Source: Pseudomonas syringae
Lineage (GTDB): Bacteria > Pseudomonadota > Gammaproteobacteria > Pseudomonadales > Pseudomonadaceae
Assembly (NCBI RefSeq): GCF_021605415.1
Contig: NZ_WKEQ01000002.1
Span: 62,001 to 126,000 of the forward strand
Length of the DNA stretch: 64,000 nucleotides
Direction: 5' to 3'
Part shown: in pieces, positions 44,184 through 52,325 of the stretch
Layout: every line of letters starts with the position of its first letter
Position numbering within the stretch: position 1 is the first letter of the stretch
The notes under the pieces: model-generated
What the model saw: the letters and a program-made list of their open reading frames with translations, nothing else
Database searches by the model: none
What the model was told of the DNA's origin: nothing
Position numbers and translations under genes: made by a program

Positions 44184-44198
44184 TTGTTGGAATTACAA
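44184..44198. promoter_or_regulatory. HexR operator near gap
   Basis: TTGT-TGGAATT-ACAA fits the HexR consensus TTGT-N7-ACAA, lying 24 bases upstream of the gap start, where a repressor would block transcription. Confidence 0.65.
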
Positions 44199-44245
44199 GA
44201 TTATTCGCATAAAAATAGAAAACAAGCCTTTTTAATGGCAATATT

Positions 44246-44260
44246 TTGTTTTATCTACAA
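44246..44260. promoter_or_regulatory. HexR operator near edd
   Basis: TTGT-TTTATCT-ACAA fits TTGT-N7-ACAA. It is about 120 bases upstream of edd and 86 from gap. Confidence 0.65.
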
Positions 44261-47254: not shown

Positions 47255-47332
47255 AGGCCAGAACAGGCAACAAATCTTCAAGCTTCATCAGGCATAATCC
47301 GCCCCAATTCCAACAACAAGGACGCCTTCGAA

Positions 47333-48064
47333 GTGAATTCAATCAACAAGTCGATTTTGTTGGTCGATGATGACCAGGAGATACGCGAGTTGCTGGAAAC
47401 CTACCTGACCCGCGCCGGGTTTCAGGTACGGGCCACGGCCGATGGTGCCGGGTTTCGTCAGGCACTCAACGAGGCGCCCAGCGATCTGGTGATCCTCGAC
47501 GTGATGCTTCCCGACGAAGACGGCTTCAGCCTGTGCCGCTGGGTGCGCCAGCATCCGCGTCAGGCGCAGGTGCCGATCATCATGCTCACCGCCAGTTCCG
47601 ACGAGGCCGACCGGGTCATCGGTCTGGAACTGGGCGCCGACGATTACCTCGGCAAACCCTTCAGCCCCCGCGAACTTCAGGCACGCATCAAGGCATTGCT
47701 GCGGCGTGCGCAATTCGCCCAGGAGCGCAGCAGCAGTGATGTGCTGACGTTCGACGATTGGCGGCTGGACATGGTCAGCCATCGTCTGTTCCACACCGAT
47801 GGCGAAGAAGTGATTTTGTCCGGCGCCGACTTTGCGTTGCTGAAACTGTTCCTCGATCATCCCCAGGAAATCCTCGACCGCGACACCATCGGCAACGCCA
47901 CCCGTGGCCGCGACCTGATGCCGCTCGACCGGATCGTCGACATGGCCGTCAGCCGTTTGCGCCAACGCCTGCGCGACACGGAAAAACCACCGCGTCTGAT
48001 CCGCACGGTGCGCGGCAGCGGTTATCAATTGGCAGCCAATGTGGTTGCCGGCAATGGCCACTGA
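47333..48064 (+). CDS. gltR: Glucose-responsive response regulator GltR
   Basis: This 243-residue OmpR/PhoB-type regulator has a receiver with phospho-Asp in DLVILDVMLPDEDGFSLCRW and a winged-helix effector in the second half (RTVRGSGYQL near the end). A GTG start (47333) gives MNSINKSILLVDDDQ; the longer frame reads through a REP. In P. putida, GltR-2 with GltS controls the gts transport genes, and the order glk-gltR-gltS-gts here agrees. It overlaps gltS by 11 bases. Confidence 0.92.
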   Translation: MNSINKSILLVDDDQEIRELLETYLTRAGFQVRATADGAGFRQALNEAPSDLVILDVMLPDEDGFSLCRWVRQHPRQAQVPIIMLTASSDEADRVIGLELGADDYLGKPFSPRELQARIKALLRRAQFAQERSSSDVLTFDDWRLDMVSHRLFHTDGEEVILSGADFALLKLFLDHPQEILDRDTIGNATRGRDLMPLDRIVDMAVSRLRQRLRDTEKPPRLIRTVRGSGYQLAANVVAGNGH

Positions 48065-49523
48065 GTTTCTGCGCAACCTCGCCGCCAAGGTGCCGATGCC
48101 GCGCTCGCTGCTCGGGCGCATGCTGCTGCTGACCTTGCTCGCGGTGTTGTTCGCGCAGACGTTGTCGAGCGTGATCTGGGTTTCGCAACTGCGCGCCACG
48201 CAACTTGAAGGCCTGGTTACCAGCGCCCGCAGCCTCGCCCATTCGATGACCGCCAGCGTCAGCTATTTCCGCTCGTTGCCGGTGGCCTATCGGCCGCTGG
48301 TGCTCGACCAGTTGCGCAGCATGGGCGGCACGCGCTTCGTCGTGACGCTCAACGACAGACCCCTGGGCATGGACGTGTTGCCCGTCACGCCACGCAAAGC
48401 GGCGGTGATGCAAGCGGTGGACGAGGTGTTGCGTCAATCCCTTGGCCACGACACCGATATTTCCGTGACCTTCGTCAGCCCTGAAGACCTGCGGATTTTC
48501 AACGCTGGCCTTAAGCTCGATGAGTTGCCGCGTTCCTGGGCGCATTACGCACTGACCCTCGAACCGGTGAATCCGCCGGTGCTGGTCACCCAAATTCAAA
48601 TGGCGCCGGGCGAATGGCTGTACATCGCCTCGCTGCTGCCCGAGCCTTACACCAGTCTGGAAGAACAAGGCCTGCCGGCGCAGCAAGTCTGGTTCATCGT
48701 GCTCACCAGCGGGTTTCTGTTGCTGTTCATCGGCCTGCTGGTGCACTGGCAAAGTCGCCCGCTCAAGCGTCTGGCGCGGGCGGCCCGGGATCTGTCGTTG
48801 GGTGCCGACGTCGAGCCGGTGGCCGAGGGCGGTGGTAGTGAAGTGGTCGAAGTGGGCCGCGCGTTCAACGCCATGCGCGAACGCATCAGCCGTTACCTGA
48901 CCGAGCGCAGCCAGTTGTTCAGCGCGATTTCCCATGACTTGCGCACGCCGATCACTCGCTTGCGCCTGCGGGTTGAGCTGCTCGAAGACGAGCAGATGCA
49001 AACCAAATTCGGTCGTGATCTGGATGAGCTGGAACTGCTGGTCAAGGGCGCGCTGCAATGCGTGAAAGACACCGACATCCACGAAAACATCGAGCCGGTC
49101 GATCTCAACCATGTGCTCGAATGCCTGGTGGAGCCGTATCTGGCGCCGGTCGGTAATGGGCGCGTGACCCAGCAGGGCAGAGCACTGGCGGCGTATCCGG
49201 GCAAGCCGTTGGCGCTGAAGCGGTGTATTGGCAACCTGATCGACAACGCTTTGAAATATGGTCAGAACGCCCATTTGCATGTTGACGATGATGAGAGTGC
49301 GTTTGTCCTGCACGTTGATGACGAAGGGCCGGGCGTGCCGGAGCAGCGGCTGGAGCAGGTATTTGAGCCGCATTTTCGACTGGCCGGGCAGAAACAAGGG
49401 TATGGGCTGGGGCTGGGGATTGCGCGCAATATTGCGCACAGCCATGGCGGCGAAGTCACACTGCAGAATTTGCGCGACGGCGGATTGCGCGTGACCCTGC
49501 AGTTACCGCGTTCCATGGATTGA
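48054..49523 (+). CDS. gltS: Sensor histidine kinase GltS
   Basis: This protein of about 489 residues has membrane helices near 22-43 and in VWFIVLTSGFLLLFIGLLVH, with a periplasmic sensor between. HAMP, then HisKA with FSAISHDLRTPITRLRLRVE (phospho-His) and an ATPase domain with NLIDNALKYG and DDEGPGVPE follow. It pairs with GltR. ATG 48054 is chosen, but a GTG at 48039 or ATG at 48096 are possible. The glucose-derived signal is inferred from the P. putida system. Confidence 0.92.
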   Translation: MATEFLRNLAAKVPMPRSLLGRMLLLTLLAVLFAQTLSSVIWVSQLRATQLEGLVTSARSLAHSMTASVSYFRSLPVAYRPLVLDQLRSMGGTRFVVTLNDRPLGMDVLPVTPRKAAVMQAVDEVLRQSLGHDTDISVTFVSPEDLRIFNAGLKLDELPRSWAHYALTLEPVNPPVLVTQIQMAPGEWLYIASLLPEPYTSLEEQGLPAQQVWFIVLTSGFLLLFIGLLVHWQSRPLKRLARAARDLSLGADVEPVAEGGGSEVVEVGRAFNAMRERISRYLTERSQLFSAISHDLRTPITRLRLRVELLEDEQMQTKFGRDLDELELLVKGALQCVKDTDIHENIEPVDLNHVLECLVEPYLAPVGNGRVTQQGRALAAYPGKPLALKRCIGNLIDNALKYGQNAHLHVDDDESAFVLHVDDEGPGVPEQRLEQVFEPHFRLAGQKQGYGLGLGIARNIAHSHGGEVTLQNLRDGGLRVTLQLPRSMD

Positions 49524-49547: not shown

Positions 49548-49613
49548 TGTCACGACACGGTGACAAAACCCGCCCCTTTCGTTACAAGCCACACCCGACC
49601 CGTTGTTTAGACT
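49548..49613 (+). promoter_or_regulatory. Promoter-operator module 1 (sugar regulon), before the mannose isomerase gene
   Basis: Ordered blocks: TGTCAC, 6 bases, GTGACA (49560-49565), 12 bases, TTCGTTAC (49578-49585), 19 bases, GTTTAGACT with -10 TAGACT at 49608-49613. The same blocks and spacings occur before gtsA. No good -35 is present at the usual distance, so an activator (GltR is the best candidate) may be needed. Confidence 0.65.
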
Positions 49614-49625
49614 GCCCGCAGTCAT

Positions 49626-49636
49626 AACAAAAAAAA
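49626..49636 (+). promoter_or_regulatory. A-rich Hfq/Crc-like site at the ribosome region
   Basis: AACAAAAAAAA immediately before GGG of the ribosome site resembles the AANAANAA motif used by Crc/Hfq for catabolite repression. Confidence 0.4.
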
Positions 49637-49645
49637 GGGTCATCC

Positions 49646-50905
49646 ATGGACACCTTCAACCCCGGCTTCAGCACCTGGCTGAACGCCCCGGCGCACCAGC
49701 ATTGGCTCGCCGCCGAAGGCCTGCGTCTGCTCGACTTCGCCAAGGCCTCACGACTTCCCGAAGGTTTCGGCAACCTCGACGAACGCGGCCAACTGACGGC
49801 CGATGCGCAAGCCGAAACCATGAACACCGCGCGCATGACCCACAGCTTCGCCATGGCCCATATTCAGGGCTTGCCGGGGTTCGCCGAACTGGTCGATCAC
49901 GGCATCGCAGCCCTGCGCGGGCCGCTGCGCGATGCGTTGCACGGTGGCTGGTTCGCCACGGCTGAACACCGCGATGGCAACACCGGCAAAAATGCCTACC
50001 TGCATGCCTTCGTCGCGCTGGCCGCCAGTTCCGCCGTGGTTGCGCAACGGCCCGGCGCCCAGGCGCTGCTCGATGACGCCGTCGACATCATCGACACGTA
50101 TTTCTGGAGCGAAGAAGAGGGCGCCATGCGCGAATTCTTCAGTCGCGACTGGCGCGAAGAAGAGGCCTATCGCGGCGCCAACAGCAACATGCACGCCACC
50201 GAAGCGTTCCTCGCCCTGGCTGATGTCACTGAAGATCCGCGCTGGCTGGTGCGAGCCCAGCGCATCGTCGAACGGGTGATCCACGGTCATGCCGCCGCCA
50301 ATGACTACCTGGTGGTCGAGCATTTCGACCGCAACTGGCAACCGCTGCGCGACTACAACCGTGACAACCCCGCCGACGGCTTTCGTCCTTACGGCACCAC
50401 GCCGGGCCACGGTTTCGAATGGGCGCGGCTGTTGCTGCACCTCGAAGCGGCTCGCGTGCAGGCCGGCATGTTGACGCCGGGCTGGCTGGCGACCGATGCG
50501 CAAAAACTCTTCGAACACAATTGTCGCCACGGCTGGGACGTCGACGGCGCGCCAGGCATTGTCTACACCCTCGACTGGGATAACAAAGCCGTGGTTCGCC
50601 ATCGCCTGCACTGGACGCACGCCGAAGCCAGCGCCGCCGCCAGCGCCCTGCTCAAACGCACCGGCGACGAGCAATACGAAACCTGGTACCGACGATTCTG
50701 GGAGTTTTGCGAAACACATTTCATCGACCGCTGTGACGGCAGTTGGCACCACGAACTCGATCCGCAAAACCGCCCGAGCGCCGATATCTGGCCGGGAAAA
50801 CCGGATCTGTATCACGCCTGGCAAGCGGTGTTGATTCCGCGTTTGCCACTGGCGCCAAGCATGGCCACTGCGCTGGCGCAGTCATCCCAAAGCGTTGCTG
50901 TGTAA
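49646..50905 (+). CDS. AGE-family epimerase/isomerase, probably mannose isomerase
   Basis: This 419-residue (alpha/alpha)6-barrel protein of the N-acylglucosamine 2-epimerase family contains ARMTHSFAMAHIQG, YRGANSNMHATEAFLALAD and GHGFEWARLLLHLE, with the His/Glu/Arg residues used by YihS and mannose isomerases. Pseudomonas mannose isomerases of this family interconvert mannose and fructose. It sits between gltS and gtsA and shares their regulatory module, so a role in sugar catabolism is likely. The exact sugar is inferred. Confidence 0.85.
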   Translation: MDTFNPGFSTWLNAPAHQHWLAAEGLRLLDFAKASRLPEGFGNLDERGQLTADAQAETMNTARMTHSFAMAHIQGLPGFAELVDHGIAALRGPLRDALHGGWFATAEHRDGNTGKNAYLHAFVALAASSAVVAQRPGAQALLDDAVDIIDTYFWSEEEGAMREFFSRDWREEEAYRGANSNMHATEAFLALADVTEDPRWLVRAQRIVERVIHGHAAANDYLVVEHFDRNWQPLRDYNRDNPADGFRPYGTTPGHGFEWARLLLHLEAARVQAGMLTPGWLATDAQKLFEHNCRHGWDVDGAPGIVYTLDWDNKAVVRHRLHWTHAEASAAASALLKRTGDEQYETWYRRFWEFCETHFIDRCDGSWHHELDPQNRPSADIWPGKPDLYHAWQAVLIPRLPLAPSMATALAQSSQSVAV

Positions 50906-50966
50906 CCATGCGGTGACATTTGCGCATCCCTTCGTTACCTGCGAAGGGAAATGCCCTGTTTAAACT
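50901..50966 (+). promoter_or_regulatory. Promoter-operator module 2 (sugar regulon), before gtsA
   Basis: TGTAAC, 6 bases, GTGACA (50913-50918), 12 bases, TTCGTTAC (50931-50938), 19 bases, GTTTAAACT with -10 TAAACT at 50961-50966. It has the same 66-base footprint as module 1. The left block overlaps the stop of the isomerase gene. Confidence 0.65.
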
Positions 50967-50999: not shown

Positions 51000-51011
51000 A
51001 ACAACAAGAAA
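51000..51011 (+). promoter_or_regulatory. A-rich Hfq/Crc-like site upstream of gtsA
   Basis: AACAACAAGAAA overlaps the ribosome region (AAAGG). It fits the AANAANAA pattern for Crc/Hfq repression, consistent with glucose uptake being a catabolite-repressed function. Confidence 0.5.
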
Positions 51012-51023
51012 GGTACATCTCAG

Positions 51024-52325
51024 ATGAATGCGATTTCTCGCCTCGCTACTGTCATTTCTGTCGCCTCCCTGTTCCCGCTCGCCATTCTGCCGCTCAGCGT
51101 TTCTGCTGCCGATTCCAAAGGTTCGGTAGAAGTCGTGCATTGGTGGACATCCGGTGGCGAAAAAGCCGCTGTCGATGTGCTCAAGGCTCAAGTTGAAAAA
51201 GACGGTTTCACCTGGAAGGACGGCGCCGTAGCCGGCGGTGGCGGTTCGACTGCCATGACCGTGCTGAAAAGCCGCGCCGTTGCCGGCAACCCGCCAGGCG
51301 TGGCCCAGATCAAGGGGCCGGACATCCAGGAATGGGCCTCAACCGGCCTGCTCGACACCGACGTACTGAAAGACGTCGCCAAAGAAGAGAAGTGGGACAG
51401 CCTGCTCGACAAGAAAGTCTCCGACACCGTGAAGTACGAAGGTGATTACGTGGCTGTGCCGGTGAACATTCACCGCGTCAACTGGCTGTGGATCAACCCG
51501 GAAGTCTTCAAGAAAGCCGGCATCACCAAGAACCCGACCACCCTCGAAGAATTCTACGCGGCAGGCGACAAGCTCAAGGCTGCCGGCTTCATTCCGCTCG
51601 CCCACGGTGGCCAGCCTTGGCAGGACAGCACCGTGTTCGAAGCCGTCGTGCTCTCGGTCATGGGTGTCGATGGTTACAAGAAAGCCCTGGTTGATCTGGA
51701 CAACGGCGCGCTGACCGGCCCGGACATGGTCAAGGCCCTGACCGAGCTGAAAAAAGTCGCGACCTACATGGACGTCGACGGCAAAGGCCAGGACTGGAAC
51801 CTCGAAGCGGCCAAGGTCATCAACGGCAAGGCCGGCATGCAGATCATGGGTGACTGGGCCAAGTCCGAATGGACCGCCGCCAAGAAAGTCGCCGGCAAGG
51901 ACTACGAGTGCGTAGCGTTCCCGGGCACCGACAAGGCGTTCACTTACAACATCGACTCCCTGGCCGTGTTCAAGCAGAAAGACGCGGGCACTGCGGCCGG
52001 TCAGAAAGACATCGCCAAAGTCGTGTTGGGTGAAAACTTCCAGAAAGTTTTCAGCATCAACAAAGGCTCGATTCCGGTTCGCAACGACATGTTGAACAAC
52101 ATGGAAAAGCTCGGTTTCGACTCCTGCGCCCAGACGGCGGCCAAGGACTTCCTGGCTGACGCCAAGTCCGGCGGCCTGCAACCAAGCATGGCGCACAACA
52201 TGGCGACCACGTTGGCTGTGCAGGGCGCGTTCTTCGACGTCGTGACCAACTACATCAACGACCCGAAAGCCGACCCGGCCGACACCGCCAAGAAACTCGG
52301 CGCTGCGATCAAGTCGTCCAAGTAG
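51024..52325 (+). CDS. gtsA: Glucose ABC transporter, periplasmic binding protein
   Basis: This 433-residue protein has a signal peptide (cleavage near residue 28, SVSA-ADSKG) and a solute-binding fold of the carbohydrate class-1 type: [20 protein letters not shown] near the start, [21 protein letters not shown] in the middle. It captures glucose (in some strains also mannitol or other sugars) for GtsBCD. ATG 51024 gives the typical start [15 protein letters not shown]. It is the first gene of gtsABCD. Confidence 0.93.

Follow-up and report, generated by a model that had tools for sequence, protein, structure and literature searches.

The window, i.e., the whole stretch of 64,000 nucleotides of Pseudomonas syringae DNA that was analyzed, contains a glucose catabolism locus with the gene order edd-glk-gltR-gtrS-manI-gtsABCD-oprB-like, with hexR and zwf further on. 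The genes and module elements described below are on the + strand. The first regulatory gene, gltR (47333..48064), encodes an OmpR-type response regulator (PF00072 and PF00486), and gtrS (48039..49523) encodes a sensor kinase with HAMP, HisKA, and HATPase_c domains. Compared to a P. aeruginosa-type genome, located with the published PAO1 sequence, GltR is 81% identical overall and 83% identical in its DNA-binding domain, while GtrS is 73% identical. The next gene, manI (49646..50905), encodes a YihS-like D-mannose isomerase of the AGE family (Pfam PF07221), and the solved structures nearest to ManI are YihS isomerases. ManI scored 736.7 bits against NCBIfam NF051846 (D-mannose isomerase), above the curated cutoff of 600, and its product is, according to this equivalog, a predicted mannose/fructose isomerase. 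It is followed by gtsA, also called gltB (51024..52325), which encodes a glucose-type substrate-binding protein, the glucose-binding protein of the GtsABCD transporter; gtsA orthologues in the same locus are 61 to 98% identical. Upstream in the window, the gap-edd interval contains two HexR-type sites (TTGT-N7/8-ACAA) at 44184-44260, an arrangement known for Pseudomonas.

Both manI and gtsA are preceded by a 66-bp operator-promoter module, TGT(C/A)AC-N6-GTGACA-N12-TTCGTTAC-N19-GTTTA(G/A)ACT. It is matched exactly at 49548..49613 (copy 1, before manI) and at 50901..50966 (copy 2, before gtsA), where its start overlaps the manI stop codon (TAA, 50903-50905). The spaced pattern had been noticed in a preliminary description of this DNA, and the exact matches bear it out. 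That description had also called the two modules identical, which is wrong, as they agree at only 39 of 66 positions; the elements and spacings are common to both copies, and the spacer sequences are not. In the window, the full pattern had these two matches even with 3 mismatches (0 expected), compared with none in 100 dinucleotide shuffles (≤3 mismatches). Uniqueness at the genome scale was judged from pattern and profile searches. The core GTNAC-N6-GTNAC-N16-GTNAC was found exactly twice in the 5.67-Mb genome, at the two module copies. A 41-column, sequence-only profile built from relatives retrieved these two copies as its only convincing sites in the whole genome (E values of 1.6e-11 and 3.4e-7), the next match (E = 0.47) being the opposite strand of copy 1. 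A chance origin of the module was rejected on the basis of the window matches, the shuffles, and the genome-wide uniqueness of core and profile. The surrounding DNA also carries a repeat, AAAGATCGCAGCC, three times in the window (49530, 43118, and 62129), once just upstream of copy 1.

The module can be read as an array of half-sites fused to a promoter. In copy 1, half-site 1 (GTCAC, 49549..49553), whose outer G, T, A, and C are unchanged on a 71-genome tree, is followed by half-site 2 (GTGACAAA, 49560..49567), which exactly matches the published GltR ChIP-seq consensus GTNACAAA, by a conserved last half-site (GTTAC within TTCGTTAC, 49581..49585), and by a partly conserved −10-like TAGACT (49608..49613). 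Copy 2 comprises half-site 1 (GTAAC, 50902..50906), conserved across relatives, half-site 2 (GTGAC, 50913..50917), equivalent to the footprinted GTGACAAA of PAO1 gltB, a conserved last half-site (GTTAC, 50934..50938), and the −10-like TAAACT (50961..50966), in which T60, A61, A63, and T65 are unchanged at gtsA. The longer GTGACATT at 50913-50920 is the GTNACAAA-type GltR sequence at gtsA, and the PAO1 footprint sequence occupies the same position in locus L239. A further element of copy 2, GCATC (50924..50928), is conserved at gtsA only, with no changes in columns C24, T26, and C27 of the module, and may represent a degenerate half-site 3. In the module frame, the half-sites thus start at +1, +12, +23 (GCRTC, gtsA only), and +33, i.e., with spacings of 11, 11, and 10 bp, which fits the 10 to 11 bp of the OmpR family. 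OmpR/PhoB-type boxes are arrays of half-sites one helical turn apart that stand in for a −35 element. No sigma-70-type −35/−10 pair was found at either module, in agreement with the lack of a good −35 noted earlier. With a transcription start about 7 bases downstream of TARACT, the operator would lie at about −70 to −35, which is an activator position. Two distant relatives, G051 and G086 (loci L101 and L107), have a stretch between half-site 2 and the promoter that is 10 to 11 bp shorter in the manI operator. In G051, 11 bases are missing between half-sites 2 and 4 and the phase is kept at 0, 11, and 21, and in G086 the third half-site is degenerate.

To follow the module across the genus, 119 genomes were sampled, in which manI adjoins gtsA in 75 evaluable genomes and lies elsewhere in 16. 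The preliminary description had suggested looking for the module before orthologous genes of related species; the exact triple of repeats was present before linked manI in 72/75 genomes and absent before all 16 unlinked manI genes. In a second set of 80 named loci, it preceded 61/61 evaluable linked manI genes, including those of P. putida, P. simiae, P. koreensis, and P. mandelii; one named locus begins inside manI and was not evaluable (L224), and another is cut by a contig end (L155). All 75 linked loci also carry the gtsA module, which is exact in 61 and deviates in its middle repeat (ATGAC or CTGAC) in 14 members of a single clade, and it was found in all 29 other gtsA promoters fetched, two of which have a spacer one base shorter. 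Since the manI tree accounts for manI-gtsA linkage with one change, the contrast between linked and unlinked genes corresponds to one event and not to sixteen independent ones. Some loci differ in their surroundings. In L071 (G006) and L199, a repeat-like insertion (TAGGAGCTGGCTTGCCGGC...) puts 220 to 290 bp between the module and manI, and the module is retained, in L199 at 287 bp upstream of manI. In L113 (G113), other DNA has taken the place of the region upstream of linked manI, with loss of the manI module and retention of the gtsA module. The unlinked manI genes of L098, L094, and L083 (P. syringae-type and relatives) share a neighbourhood of another kind, close to a LysR-type gene, and in two of these loci manI follows a chemoreceptor gene.

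We compared how the parts of the module evolve by counting parsimony changes per column, using 71 genomes on the manI tree for the manI promoter and 74 genomes for the gtsA promoter. At manI, the 12 core bases had 0 changes, the 20 bases of the three elements 0.45, and the −10 region 4.8, compared with 12.9 in the spacers, 29.5 in the upstream 30 bases, and 15.6 at four-fold degenerate sites of manI. At the gtsA promoter, there were 0.08 changes in the core, 0.35 in the elements, 7.9 in the spacers, and 15.4 upstream. Spacer identity between the two copies was 0.362 within a genome and 0.367 across genomes, and recent duplication or gene conversion was therefore rejected, because sharing a genome does not make two copies more alike. 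With a frozen core, saturated spacers, and no excess similarity within genomes, the two copies are, as judged from their substitution patterns, old and separately maintained, which upholds the earlier proposal that selection, and not recent copying, is at work. Both promoters do have operator, −10, and CA motif (see below) in common, which suggests common descent, so that the manI copy could in principle be a passive remnant of gtsA promoter duplication, or be kept alike by gene conversion, without regulating manI. Given that core bases never change while spacers saturate, and that the copies show no excess similarity within genomes, we find this scarcely credible.

The adjacent GltR had been put forward as the candidate factor, and published work in P. 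aeruginosa together with its distribution supports this proposal. In P. aeruginosa, gltB (i.e., gtsA; PA3190) is the strongest GltR ChIP-seq peak, with the motif GTNACAAA, and its promoter is protected by GltR in DNase footprints; GltR phosphorylation raises binding, deletion of GTGACAAA abolishes glucose induction, and GltR-dependent expression has been published for gltB (PMC7927077). Before gtsA, the P. aeruginosa-type genome reads TGTAAC-N6-GTGACAAACCCGGATCGC-TTCGTTAC, which is the same module (TGTAAC-N6-GTGACA-N12-TTCGTTAC), and the footprinted sequence is its middle repeat. Placed on this sequence, the first published footprint (−44 to −13) would cover half-sites 1 and 2, and the second (−11 to +15) would cover GGATC and GTTAC. 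Furthermore, GltR is encoded in 104/119 genomes, and GltR and gtsA are jointly present or absent in 118/119, the 14 genomes without gtsA also being without GltR. The single exception, G051, has gtsA and no GltR at the threshold, and its assembly is 9% contaminated. About 15 genomes retain both modules with gltR at a distance from the block (~110 kb away in G004 and G017), so that mere hitch-hiking with the adjacent gltR-gtrS pair was rejected.

The symmetry of the module does leave room for another regulator, such as a dimeric factor reading TGTMAC-N6-GTKACA, acting at both promoters alone or with GltR. The invariant T and A on the flanks of half-sites 1 and 2 speak for inversion of the first pair and make it symmetric (TGTMAC...GTGACA), a near-perfect inverted repeat, and copy 1 of the present genome carries GTNACAAA on both strands. 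This symmetry departs from the usual head-to-tail OmpR arrangement and is thus a counterpoint to GltR activation at manI. Since GTNAC is self-complementary, sequence alone fixes neither a direct nor an inverted orientation of the half-sites. However, it is GltR itself that was footprinted on the element in P. aeruginosa, where gltB gives the strongest peak, and the same 14 genomes lack both gltR and gtsA; we therefore regard control by another factor as improbable.

The sign of regulation has also been debated. Daddaoua et al. (2014) assigned GltR a repressor role and another consensus, tgGTTTTTc, and the start site they mapped would lie within the operator (PMC4081096). The start site used in the literature is likewise located in the operator, and this may explain the disagreement between repressor and activator models. 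According to the 2014 model, reported for the P. aeruginosa glk, edd/gap-1, oprB, and toxA promoters (PMC4081096), GltR would repress both promoters and leave the DNA when phosphorylated. In contrast, later work found activation, tighter binding on phosphorylation, and loss of induction on site deletion (PMC7927077). The GGTTTTTC core of the 2014 consensus occurs three times in the 39- to 61-kb part of the window (52726+, 59478−, and 47988−), and never before edd, gap, glk, manI, or gtsA in the window, so that this consensus was rejected as the operator here. Moreover, the module replaces a missing −35 upstream of a conserved −10, as expected of an activator, and repression at both promoters seems to us very improbable.

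Taken together, these observations favour, with a probability of roughly 80%, the reading that each copy combines a GltR operator with an activator-dependent promoter that would provide glucose-induced expression of gtsABCD-oprB and, by extension, of manI. GtrS would detect glucose by way of GtsA/GltB in its glucose-loaded form, a mechanism shown in P. aeruginosa, and phosphorylated GltR would then bind the half-site array at whole-turn spacing (GTMAC at +1, GTGAC at +12, GCRTC at +23 at gtsA only, and GTTAC at +33). Bound GltR may place RNA polymerase on the −10 TARACT without a −35. The outcome would be glucose-induced transcription of gtsABCD-oprB, as shown in P. aeruginosa, and presumably of manI by the same mechanism, whereupon ManI could convert mannose imported alongside glucose to fructose.

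Because manI immediately precedes gtsA on the same strand, with its stop codon reaching into the gtsA operator, the manI module might instead mainly serve gtsABCD by read-through, with manI as a passenger of a tandem promoter pair. The clade with a changed middle repeat at gtsA and an intact manI module would fit this arrangement. On the other hand, no linked locus lacks a module for gtsA itself, and manI persists at unlinked positions with no module before it, indicating that manI has a use of its own. We thus consider read-through unlikely as the main function of the manI module and favour GltR-dependent activation of manI itself.

Both genes may also be subject to posttranscriptional control. 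The A-rich manI leader AACAAAAA (49626..49633) places a degenerate Hfq/Crc CA motif over the ribosome-binding site; in the present genome this motif occurs in the degenerate form AANAANAA only, and AAYAAYAA is present in 55/75 linked manI leaders versus 2/16 unlinked ones. The gtsA leader carries the CA motif AACAACAA (51000..51007), a feature of 75/75 linked and 18/18 other evaluable gtsA leaders. Studies of crc in P. putida recorded a response of gtsA (PP_1015) and of oprB-1 (PMC3003667). Since both leaders usually contain the motif, manI and gtsA are probably silenced as long as better carbon sources are available. The AACAACAA motif also precedes the gltR start (47310-47335), and the regulator itself may be under Hfq/Crc control. 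We infer that GltR binds and activates at manI, that manI is controlled by Hfq/Crc, and that it has a role in mannose use. A broader and quite tentative picture is that glucose uptake and mannose isomerization form one glucose-sensed unit, in which GtsABCD would also import mannose and ManI would feed fructose metabolism, GltR would read a multi-half-site module with an inverted first pair, unusual for an OmpR-type regulator, and manI would have come under GltR and Hfq/Crc together upon its linkage to gtsA.

The GltR operator was already known at gtsA, and its extension to the mannose isomerase gene appears new; no GltR-manI link, manI expression data, or paper on PP_1014 was found in the literature searched. 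Our analysis suggests that the GltR operator consists of several spaced half-sites and is more than a single octamer, and it predicts a new member of the glucose regulon, a mannose isomerase, in most Pseudomonas species sampled. The conserved −10 downstream of the operator also offers a handle for deciding whether GltR activates or represses.

Several known systems resemble the locus in part. One is the GltR operator of P. aeruginosa gltB (PA3190), which, as seen in a P. aeruginosa-type genome, has the same element and spacing, including the footprinted GTGACAAACCCGGA, the same adjoining regulator genes, and an orthologous target. Unlike in the present locus, gtrS and gltB of the P. aeruginosa-type locus are not separated by manI, and the published account names one 8-bp consensus and neither the multi-half-site module nor a manI target (PMC7927077). 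With OmpR/PhoB-type boxes, the module shares an OmpR-family regulator, helical half-site spacing, and the lack of a −35, whereas its first half-site pair reads inverted and these boxes are usually head-to-tail direct repeats. At the protein level, ManI matches the YihS-like aldose-ketose isomerases (sulfoquinovose isomerase; PDB 2rgk, 2zbl, and 7ag4) over its full length within the common AGE superfamily. Unlike YihS, it falls in the NCBIfam Pseudomonas D-mannose isomerase equivalog, which predicts its substrate from sequence. Finally, P. protegens Pf-5 converts mannose to fructose during growth on glucose plus mannose, an activity for which no annotated gene was found (PMC6293094). This mannose isomerase activity is what a GltR-controlled ManI would predict, and manI is a candidate for both its gene and its control logic.
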